A stretch of 20,284 bases of DNA from a virus. Numbering within the stretch: the first letter of the stretch is position 1; each line of letters begins with the position of its first letter. The DNA lies in IMG/VR virus record IMGVR_UViG_3300042868_000026, positions 1-20,284 of that record; one strand, 5' to 3'. The position numbers and the translations under genes were made by a program. Below the pieces are notes generated by a model. The model made no database searches, had not been told where the DNA came from, and saw only the letters and a list, made by a program, of their open reading frames with translations. This document shows positions 2,308-5,176 of the stretch, piece by piece.

Positions 2308-3084
2308 ATGGAAACTACCGAAGCAGTCCAGCCCACAGAGGATGGTGGCCTACTGGACTCAGAAACAACTGAGGACAGCCAAGGTACAGAGCAGCAAAAC
2401 CCAGAAGCATCACAGATATCTCATTTAGCAGAGCAAGAGGATGACACTCCGCTAGACCGGCCTGATTGGTGGCCTGAGAACTTTTGGAAGAAAGACGATG
2501 CAGCCCCTGATCTTGAGGGCATAGCAAAATCGTGGATGGACTTGCGTAAGCAGATATCGCAAGGCAAACACAAAGCTCCAGCAGATGGCAAATACGATGC
2601 ATCCGCATTTGGCGCAATTCCAGAGAATGACCCAGTTCGTAGCCACGTCTTGGATTGGGCTAAAGAGAATGGGATATCGCAACTCGCCTTAGATAGTTTG
2701 GTTGGCAAAGTGGTTGGCATGAGTGCAGAGAAGGTAGAGTCTGTCACTAGATCACTTGCTGAAGAAAAGGCAGCCCTTGGTCCTAACGCAGATGTCATTA
2801 TTAAAGGCATTAGTAATTGGGGTTCTAGCTTTGTTAGTAAGGGAGTAATGAGCAAAGAAGATTTTGAAGAATTTAAAATCATGGGTGGAACCGCTGCTGG
2901 CATTAGAGTTTTTGCAAAAATAAGAGAGGCTTATGAAGGCTCTCGTATTCCCACCGAGTCAGTACCAACTGAAGGCGCTCCCTCTAAAGAAGAGTTATAC
3001 CAGATGGTTGGTGATCCTAAGTACAAGACGGATCCAGGCTATCGAGCTAAAGTTGAGCGAATGTTTGCTCAAAATTTCGGCTAA
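2308..3084 (+). CDS. Capsid assembly scaffolding protein, T7 gp9-like
   Basis: The 258-residue product has a strongly acidic, low-complexity N-terminus rich in Glu, Asp, Gln, Ser and Thr (about residues 1-50). A WWPENFWKK segment follows and then helical, charged sequence. The C-terminal helix contains GDPKYKTDPGYRAKVERMF. Acidic N-terminus, helical body and a basic C-terminal capsid-binding helix are the layout of podovirus scaffolds (T7 gp9, 307 aa), and its place just before the major capsid gene agrees. Scaffolds fill the procapsid and leave before DNA packaging. AAGGAAA at 2293-2299 precedes the ATG. A strong terminator follows the stop. Confidence 0.9.
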   Translation: METTEAVQPTEDGGLLDSETTEDSQGTEQQNPEASQISHLAEQEDDTPLDRPDWWPENFWKKDDAAPDLEGIAKSWMDLRKQISQGKHKAPADGKYDASAFGAIPENDPVRSHVLDWAKENGISQLALDSLVGKVVGMSAEKVESVTRSLAEEKAALGPNADVIIKGISNWGSSFVSKGVMSKEDFEEFKIMGGTAAGIRVFAKIREAYEGSRIPTESVPTEGAPSKEELYQMVGDPKYKTDPGYRAKVERMFAQNFG

Positions 3085-3116: not shown

Positions 3117-3145
3117 CCCCGGTGCAGTTTGCCGGGGGTTTTTTT
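3117..3145 (+). terminator. Rho-independent terminator after the scaffold gene
   Basis: CCCCGG (3117-3122) pairs with CCGGGG (3132-3137) across a 9-nt loop, and a G plus a run of seven T (3139-3145) follows. This is a canonical intrinsic terminator 32 nt downstream of the scaffold stop. It would uncouple transcription of the portal-scaffold group from the capsid group, or set a lower read-through level. A small TCTC/GAGA stem (about 3093-3105) lies just upstream. Confidence 0.9.
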
Positions 3146-3160
3146 ATCCACATTTAGTAG

Positions 3161-3305
3161 ATGTAAAAAATATTTCACTAGATGTTGTATTTTTCCTACA
3201 TTTCTGCTAGAAACTCATTAAGGCATACCATTTAGTTGGCCCTTGATGCAGATTAATCTGACGATTGGCTACCGCAAGTAGCAAGCGTAGGCCCTGGCAA
3301 CAGGC
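3161..3305 (+). promoter_or_regulatory. Candidate structured 5' leader of the major capsid gene
   Basis: The 270-nt gap between scaffold and capsid genes holds no convincing ORF. After the terminator it contains consecutive potential stem-loops: ATGTAAAAAATA (3161-3172) with TATTTTTCCTACAT (3188-3201, two bulged bases); CATTAAGG (3216-3223) with CCTTGATG (3241-3248, one G-U pair); the perfect palindrome CAGATTAATCTG (3249-3260); GCTAC (3268-3272) with GTAGC (3278-3282), extended by outer CG pairs at 3262-3263/3286-3287; and GCC-TG (3291-3296, one bulged C) with CAGGC (3301-3305) around a GCAA loop. The second and third stems abut, so could stack. An unstructured A/C-rich stretch and the ribosome site AGGAG (3344-3348) follow. 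No clear promoter was found; the capsid promoter may lie here. Stems were found by eye without energy calculation. Confidence 0.5.
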
Positions 3306-3354
3306 ACACCAAAGCAAAAACCCAATTTATTTTTTACCTATTTAGGAGAAACAC

Positions 3355-4197
3355 ATGAGCATTTCATTATCTAATGCCTTTGTTACCCTCTTTGATGCTG
3401 AGGTAAAACAGGCTTTCCAGGGCAAAGCAATGCTGGTAGGTGCTGTTCGTCAGCGTAGAGGAGTAGAAGGTTCTACAGTTAAATTTCCAAAAGTTGGCAA
3501 AGGTGTGGCTACCCCACGCATTAGTCAATCTGATGTAACCCCATTAAACGTAGCATTTTCAAGCGTAACTTGCACCCTATCTGACTTTAATGCCGCTGAG
3601 TACAGCGACATTTTCAGCCAGGCTAAAGTTAACTTTGATGAGCGCCAAGAGCTTGTACAAGTTCTAGGCCACGCTATTGGCCGTAGACAAGACCAGTTAA
3701 TTCTTGATGCTTTGACAGCATCTAGCACCAGCTTGACTGTTTCTAACGATATCGGTGGTAGCGATACCAACATGAACGTAGCCAAGTTGCGTGAAGCTAA
3801 AAAGTTATTGGATAAAAATAACGTACCTCCAGAGGGCCGTCACATTATCCTCCACGCAAATGGTTTGGCATCGTTGTTGTCTGAGACAGCTGTAACTAGC
3901 TCTGACTTCAATACTGTTAAAGCACTTGTTGCTGGTGAAATCAATACGTTCTTGGGCTTTACTTTCCATATCCTTGGTGACCGCTCTGAGGGTGGCCTAG
4001 CAGTTGATGCGTCTTTAGACCGCACTTGCTTTGCTTTCCACAAAGATGCCATCGGCTATGCAGAAGCTATTGCTCCACGCACCGAAGTTAACTACATCCC
4101 TGAGAAGACCTCGTTCCTCGTGAACAGCATTTTCTCAGCCGGTGCAATTAACATCGATGATGAGGGTATTGTCAAAATCACCGCTCGCGAATCTTAA
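3355..4197 (+). CDS. Major capsid protein
   Basis: The 280-residue protein follows the scaffold, as in T7-like phages, and begins with MSISLSNAFVTLFDAEVKQAF. The pattern 'V..F...V...FQ..s.L...V..r.gv.G.t..FPK.G' and the later QDQLILDAL and KLLDKNNVPPEGR segments are typical of short HK97-fold podovirus capsid proteins. The VPPEGRHIILH segment is a recognisable part of this family. It is shorter than T7 gp10A (345 aa), with no sign of a T7-style frameshifted long form after the stop. The ribosome site AGGAG (3344-3348) is 6 nt before the ATG. The long leader upstream suggests separate control of this abundantly needed protein. Confidence 0.93.
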   Translation: MSISLSNAFVTLFDAEVKQAFQGKAMLVGAVRQRRGVEGSTVKFPKVGKGVATPRISQSDVTPLNVAFSSVTCTLSDFNAAEYSDIFSQAKVNFDERQELVQVLGHAIGRRQDQLILDALTASSTSLTVSNDIGGSDTNMNVAKLREAKKLLDKNNVPPEGRHIILHANGLASLLSETAVTSSDFNTVKALVAGEINTFLGFTFHILGDRSEGGLAVDASLDRTCFAFHKDAIGYAEAIAPRTEVNYIPEKTSFLVNSIFSAGAINIDDEGIVKITARES

Positions 4198-4507: not shown

Positions 4508-4542
4508 ATGGGCTATTGCTGGCAAAACTGGCGATAGCCCAT
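4508..4542 (+). terminator. 12-bp stem-loop between head and tail genes (weak terminator or processing site)
   Basis: ATGGGCTATTGC (4508-4519) pairs with GCGATAGCCCAT (4531-4542) along all 12 positions, with one G-U pair and an 11-nt loop. It lies in the 71-nt gap between the small head gene and tail tubular gene A. Only a weak T tract (TTCTT) follows, so it is not a textbook intrinsic terminator. It may attenuate transcription, block 3' exonucleases or mark an RNA processing site that keeps capsid mRNA more abundant than tail mRNA. Confidence 0.55.
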
Positions 4543-4561: not shown

Positions 4562-5176
4562 ATGGCAGCTGGCGATACCGCACTATCAATATGTTCTGAT
4601 GCTTGCGTGATGTTAGGCGCAAAGCCAATCTCCTCATTTAATGAAGGAACTGATGAGGCATCGATTGCAGACCGCTTATATGCGGATATTCGCAATCAAG
4701 CCCTTATGCTTTACCCTTGGTCATTTAGCTTTAAAAAGACCTCTATTGCTCAATTAGTAACAACACCTACTAACGAGTACCGCTACGAATATCAGTTGCC
4801 TGGAGACCGACTAGGATCCCCAAGAGCGGTATATGACACTAATGCCACAGGCATCCCGCCACGCAAAGAATACAGAATCATGGGTAGCAAACTGCTTACC
4901 GATTATCAACAGGTTTATATTGACTATCAATACGCTGTACCTGAGTTTGAAATGCCCAGCTATTTTGTGCAATTGCTCAAGTACATGATGACCTGGCACC
5001 TTGCATTACCTATTACAGACCAAACAGAGAAGAGCCAGTATTGGCAATCTGTCGCTGTTGGCTCACCAGCTGAAAATGGCAGAGGTGGATATCTAAGACA
5101 GGCTATGAACATTGATGGCCTTAACCAACCAACCAACGCAATTAACGATTTCTCACTTATTGCTGTGAGGTATTAA
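4562..5176 (+). CDS. Tail tubular protein A, T7 gp11-like
   Basis: The 204-residue product is close to T7 gp11 (196 aa), the adaptor ring that joins portal to nozzle. Family-like features are the N-terminal CSDACVMLGAKPI helix, the NQALMLYPWSFSFKK segment (about residues 44-58), LPGDRLGSPRAVY in the middle and a KYMMTWHLALPITD helix near the end. Tail tubular A proteins typically show 'A.r.yp....l..hpW.fa.kr'. TGGAG (4551-4555) serves as ribosome site. The stop TAA overlaps the ATG of the next gene by one base, so translation of the two tail tube proteins is probably coupled. Confidence 0.92.
   Translation: MAAGDTALSICSDACVMLGAKPISSFNEGTDEASIADRLYADIRNQALMLYPWSFSFKKTSIAQLVTTPTNEYRYEYQLPGDRLGSPRAVYDTNATGIPPRKEYRIMGSKLLTDYQQVYIDYQYAVPEFEMPSYFVQLLKYMMTWHLALPITDQTEKSQYWQSVAVGSPAENGRGGYLRQAMNIDGLNQPTNAINDFSLIAVRY

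Follow-up and report, generated by a model that had tools for sequence, protein, structure and literature searches.

A conserved structured leader RNA predicted to open the major capsid mRNA of short-tailed water phages

Comparative sequence analysis identifies a structured leader RNA of four stems at the 5′ end of a phage major capsid mRNA, at approximately positions 3220–3322 of a 20,284-base virus record (IMGVR_UViG_3300042868_000026, hereafter the window). The phages that carry this leader, which we model as R1, are a large and little-studied group of short-tailed phages living in water. Within the window, a portal gene (437–2035) and a scaffold-like gene (2308–3084) are followed by a terminator (3117–3144), the major capsid gene (3355–4197) and, after it, genes for the tail and other structural parts. 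By capsid protein, Methylophilales phage MEP301 is the closest isolate (81% identical); it is a short-tailed phage that infects OM43 bacteria (PMC8024684). A strong hairpin lacking a T run, GGGCTATTGCTGGC...GCGATAGCCC, occurs at 4509–4541, after the 91-amino-acid gene that follows the capsid gene and before the tail gene at 4562, and is possibly an RNA processing site. The features of the leader region are as follows.

3117–3144, plus strand: intrinsic terminator (8-bp stem, then a T run) parting the portal and scaffold genes from the capsid unit
3152–3184, no strand assigned: imperfect inverted repeat rich in A and T, ACATTTAGT...ACTAGATGT, lying before the −35 box and outside the RNA, inside the stretch of low folding energy
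3185–3213, plus strand: predicted sigma70-type promoter, with −35 TTGTAT (3185–3190), a 17-nt spacer and extended −10 TGcTAGAAA (3205–3213), located by eye from homologues
3220–3322, plus strand: conserved core of the predicted leader RNA, model R1 (covariance model match of 101 bits at 3216–3322, the window itself being among the sequences used to build the model)
3220–3244, plus strand: P1 hairpin, 3220–3223/3241–3244, internal loop CAUA (3224–3227) versus C (3240), 3228–3231/3236–3239; from covariation
3249–3260, plus strand: P2 hairpin, 3249–3252/3257–3260; from covariation
3268–3282, plus strand: P3 hairpin, 3268–3272/3278–3282, with conserved pentaloop CGNWA (3273–3277); from covariation and conservation
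3283–3286, plus strand: single-stranded AAGC linking P3 and P4 (AAG in 97/97 sequences, the next C in 96/97)
3290–3310, plus strand: P4 hairpin, 3290–3291/3309–3310, C (3292) versus CACA (3305–3308), 3293–3296/3301–3304; from covariation
3314–3322, plus strand: conserved single-stranded 3′ tail, consensus approximately GCGANAAAC (G and C each in 96/97 sequences)
3323–3354, plus strand: A/U-rich linker of kept length and variable sequence, with Shine-Dalgarno AGGAGA (3344–3349)
3355–4197, plus strand: major capsid protein gene, 280 amino acids (PHROG 3437 major head protein, E 9.5e-57)

Covariation and folding energy of the leader

The stems were evaluated in an alignment of 97 sequences with a mean pairwise identity of 67%, aligned to the R1 model. 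Changes on both sides are seen in 16 of the 23 model pairs, and standard pairs fill 95.7% of paired cells, compared with 78.8% in shuffled alignments and 16–40% when partners are slid; a slide of a single column is enough for the pairing signal to collapse. The covariation score is 0.489 versus 0.162, and double-change cells number 419 versus 128 in shuffles. Because this alignment was fitted to the model and is hence biased toward it, we added a broader test of all 5,356 column pairs with average-product correction and a tree-preserving null, a re-implementation of tree-aware covariation testing and not R-scape itself. The top eight pairs (E ≤ 0.05) all belong to the four-stem model and are distributed across P1, P2, P3 and P4. 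They include three of the four P2 pairs, in which 99.7% of cells pair, and five pairs that exceed every null score, namely 3230–3237 and 3231–3236 in P1, 3272–3278 in P3, and 3295–3302 and 3296–3301 in P4. Both outer AU pairs of P1 are also doubly changed, and plain MAFFT alignment followed by RNAalifold, before any model, gave 12 doubly changed pairs. The proposed pairs covary beyond what phylogeny explains, the general mark of a conserved structured RNA. A possible extra contact across P2 (3246/3253; C-G in 49/97 sequences, A-U in 41/97) falls outside the model and was left out of the covarying set (E 0.47).

P1 and P4 share a 1×4 internal loop (GR-C-CC / GG-CNNA-YC), whose long strand reads GG-C-N-N-A-Y-Y and short strand R-R-C-CC; in P1 of the window these are GGCAUACC (3222–3229) and GGCCC (3238–3242). 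P4 is the P1 module with its long strand on the 3′ side, so that R1 presents two modules in side-by-side hairpins with opposite strand order. The invariant positions agree between them: GG, A and CCC do not vary in either hairpin across the 97 sequences, and the loop C is nearly invariant. The pair adjoining the loop of P1 is U-A, C-G or C-A, never U-G. In the P3 pentaloop the C and the last A are invariant across the same set.

Of the five local stems claimed in the original prediction, all can be drawn, and the second to fifth are P1 to P4 of the conserved RNA (3216–3223/3241–3248 being P1, 3249–3260 P2, the core 3268–3282 of the fourth P3, and 3290–3310 P4); the first lies outside it, as described below. 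The GNRA tetraloop noted in the last stem does not hold as a feature, the P4 loops being variable among relatives. The bulged C reported for that stem is there, and is really the short side of the conserved 1×4 loop that also occurs in P1.

Folding energy told a different story from covariation. An unusual density of stems had been argued, with comparison to dinucleotide shuffles as a check, and 3146–3354 does give a z-score of −2.5. However, the AT-rich promoter DNA at 3146–3215 alone has a z-score of −3.16, and the leader proper and likely transcript (3219–3354) folds no better than its shuffles (z +0.33), placing the origin of the signal outside the RNA. Shuffle comparison, a helpful but not required criterion, likewise set the cores of 18 sampled leaders (window, MEP301 and 16 other homologues) no lower than their controls (mean z −0.2). 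We dropped folding energy as evidence for the leader, its signal being that of the promoter region. Used alone, the energy condition that the original prediction named as refuting it (folding no better than shuffled sequence) would have wrongly rejected a leader that covariation retains, and energy-based screens would miss RNAs like this one.

Two readings other than a leader RNA were considered for the conserved block. A small upstream reading frame is ruled out, as lengths do not stay in steps of three nucleotides and most frames are closed. A DNA-level element, such as a packaging, recombination or protein-binding site, would account for a block that always occupies the same genome place, and the strand test (34 G-U cells and 43 A-C cells, 25 of the latter from one module pair) does not separate it from an RNA. 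Conservation nevertheless begins at the predicted transcription start and stops before the linker, and covariation tracks stems of RNA type with loops free to differ in length, as in P1, making a DNA element extremely improbable.

Promoter, occurrence and linkage to the capsid gene

The terminator at 3117–3144 is the strongest sense-strand terminator-like site within the window, and a strict stem followed by a T run is found upstream in 60 of 95 related loci. The window promoter was placed by homology, an automatic scan having picked another site in the window. Of 96 homologues, 75 have their best −10 ending 6–7 nt short of P1, and 81% have it within 3–9 nt as against 10% in shuffles. The most likely transcription start is P1, following the terminator and the sigma70-type promoter. 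Given this −10 position, the first stem of the original prediction (3161–3172/3188–3201) precedes the likely RNA start; it overlaps the −35 box and spacer and is no part of the RNA. The inverted repeat at 3152–3184 is kept only in close relatives in a by-eye comparison, and could serve as the operator of a regulator that acts on the capsid promoter.

A capsid-protein search returned 80 IMG/VR loci, 78 of them with upstream sequence, and all 78 of these close relatives have the leader (77 by pattern, L053 by covariance model). We also scanned viral contigs and cellular genomes with a P3-to-P4 DNA pattern irrespective of genes, which gave at least the listed matches in viral contigs but only five in 257 billion bases of cellular genomes. 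Among the viral and cellular matches listed, 126 sequences were located (window included), 116 with a capsid match, and the pattern stands 83–98 nt before the capsid start in 115 of these 116, the match in L091 being fragmentary. Seven of the remaining ten reach a contig end, and three on genome contigs (L200, L201 and L204) score 12–15 bits and were rejected as chance. Among the matches listed, the real R1 pattern is found only in front of this capsid gene. Two of the R1 leaders (L202 and L203) lie on contigs assigned to Rhodoferax and Flavobacteriaceae MAG bins; these are probably phage contigs, so the bin names point to hosts only weakly.

Twelve longer records searched whole contain one good R1 copy each, with no second copy above chance elsewhere in the genome. 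In every case seen, the gene that comes first after the RNA is the capsid gene, and the arrangement is thus compatible with both gene-specific and operon-wide action. The distance from the end of the R1 RNA to the capsid ATG is 31.0 ± 2.4 nt (94 loci), some of this conservation stemming from the Shine-Dalgarno itself.

Operon-wide action could take the form of a put-like antitermination RNA, which would bind the host RNA polymerase on emerging, at the zinc-binding domain as put-type RNAs do, and make it resist pausing and termination along the structural operon. The leader does sit directly behind a predicted host-type promoter that heads a long operon. MEP301 lacks an RNA polymerase gene of its own (PMC8024684), and HK022 putL, a protein-independent RNA of ∼70 nt with two stem-loops, similarly lies just 3′ of its promoter (PMC9378689). 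A bulged region of HK022 put RNA is functionally essential (PMC9378689). The put RNAs, however, have two copies per genome and serve early operons, whereas R1 is a single copy confined to the capsid promoter, with four stems and 103 nt in place of two stem-loops and ∼70 nt. Few sense-strand terminator-like sites lie downstream within the window, and antitermination has no need of a narrow, fixed distance to the ATG. We regard a put-like role as unlikely.

Leaders of related phages

In a 72-protein capsid tree, the R1 leaders fall into one group explained by one change (support 89/92); the assignment to a single clade is not fully firm. Leader type tracks the capsid tree. No R1 match was obtained at the leaders of a Vibrio-type locus (L207), a Vibrio phage (L291) or two pelagiphages (L289 and L290), whose capsids are ∼27–39% identical. 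Upstream of the capsid gene in L265 and L266 is another leader, with GCGGCCCGAAAC...GUUUCGCCUWWACCGC pairing.

The sister clade (support 100/100) comprises Dunaliella viridis virus SI2 and IMG/VR relatives, and a second conserved leader, CAAGATGCAGACCCGCGAGGAACGGCACCCGGC...GGCCC...GGCCCTCGATC, precedes the capsid gene in L206 and L208–L254. Like R1, these SI2-type leaders are promoter-proximal, belong to the same gene, end at a near-equal distance from the ATG (33.4 ± 1.2 nt) and have two GRCCC strands with GGC-type partners. They are conserved among themselves, with GACCC and GGCCC as the short strands. Unlike R1, they are probably nested in arrangement, have a 3-nt instead of a 4-nt loop, lack P2 and P3, and do not match the R1 model; the two members scanned against Rfam (L206 and L227) gave no match. 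Their inner GAGG/CCUC helix is weak when taken alone, with a mean complementary run of 3.9 versus 3.2 in shuffles and a shuffle maximum of 3.9.

Three divergent leaders (L257, L260 and L282) each have at least two matches to the R1 1×4 loop module, at shuffle frequencies of 0.02, 0.013 and 0 of 150, respectively, for the module pairs. This cross-clade module reading was found after viewing the data and is a lead, not a test. It raises the doubtful idea that an entire capsid clade among tailed phages with double-stranded DNA might control capsid synthesis by a leader with two copies of one internal-loop module. That the module is kept while the layout shifts from side-by-side in R1 to nested in the sister clade might conceivably reflect a two-site binder, for example capsid protein or ribosome, reading the pair.

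L260 and L282 each have a short strand with two possible long-strand partners, and in the window the short strand of P1 could alternatively pair with the long strand of P4 (4+3 bp), which would make the leader a bistable RNA. The key pair for this in R1, 55–141, does not covary and is A-C in 70 of the 97 sequences, leaving the S1-L2 alternative pairing unsupported as a conserved switch and a bistable RNA very improbable.

Proposed function and comparison with known systems

The suggestion that the position would suit control of translation or stability agrees with what was found, and a regulatory role appears plausible from sequence. We favor, tentatively and at slightly less than even confidence, a phage-specific cis-acting leader that controls capsid translation and mRNA life via two loop modules read by a trans-acting factor. 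The narrow ATG spacing of both R1 and SI2-type leaders, set against the looser terminator-to-RNA distance (sd 13.3), was counted in favor of a capsid-linked cis element. Placement and structure are computed, and the mechanism we infer would run as follows. P1 would cap the 5′ end of the transcript, slowing its decay, and a trans-acting factor would dock the two modules, the CGNWA loop and the AAGC linker just outside the 30S footprint. This factor could be a phage capsid or assembly protein, or a component of the host ribosome, and may boost capsid translation or throttle it when free capsid protein accumulates. Since the conserved structure stops short of the Shine-Dalgarno, any effect would be expected to bear on standby or platform loading rather than on masking. 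The ribosome platform binds upstream 5′ UTR sites (PMC3936740), and a 5′ hairpin is able to stabilize bacterial mRNA (PMC3997798). We found no E. coli rRNA segment mimicked by the loop module, and such a mimic was rejected for want of a plausible paired site.

The hairpins could instead merely shield a very abundant mRNA from decay, a known role of 5′ hairpins (PMC3997798) that fits the start of P1 a few nucleotides from the likely transcription start predicted by promoter spacing. A simple hairpin would be enough for such protection, which accounts for P1 only and leaves the invariant loop, repeated module, AAGC linker and ATG spacing unexplained; the predicted folding energy is also ordinary. 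Pure 5′-end protection therefore seems to us an unlikely explanation of the whole element.

In line with the original prediction, the RNA matches no named family. Rfam 15 at gathering thresholds returned no match in the window and nine relatives, and relaxed thresholds gave chance-level matches only. No such capsid leader emerged from a literature search whose coverage lay outside subscription journals. The R1 leader matches no described RNA family in the databases searched. Compact multi-stem RNAs with conserved unpaired bases include riboswitches, and glutamine riboswitches occur in some marine phages (PMC9004378). For R1, the Rfam result, the tie to one capsid gene and not to metabolism, and the expression platform, of which none was seen (no consistent Shine-Dalgarno pairing by eye and no terminator between RNA and gene), make a small-molecule riboswitch quite improbable.

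The closest parallels are partial. HK022 putL is, like R1, a phage RNA of stem-loops directly behind a promoter for host polymerase (PMC9378689). The 1×4 loop, with its conserved C and A, looks similar to the C-loop, a recurrent asymmetric internal loop (PMC3854523, PMC8570644). Going by its name, Mu-gpT-DE (RF03012) is likewise a structured RNA that belongs with a head gene of a phage; unlike R1, it has a 53-nt model, and its weak match at 3336–3357 of the window (13.9 bits, cut-off 49) covers only the ribosome-binding site. The name Mu-gpT-DE denotes a “downstream element.” In the leader that forms the E. coli thrS operator, a protein reads repeated arms close to the ribosome site; these arms mimic tRNA and block the ribosome. 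R1 may resemble it in being a leader with repeated arms.

Tailed phages must supply hundreds of capsid subunits on time, which is usually credited to promoters and gene order. Should the capsid clade as a whole use such leaders, the two-module leader would be to tailed phages what coat-protein operators are to RNA phages. For the R1 phages themselves, the leader is probably a built-in control for making the main shell protein, and, with such an RNA conserved on capsid mRNAs across a widespread aquatic group and carried by the isolate MEP301 on OM43 bacteria, RNA-level control of capsid dosage becomes testable.
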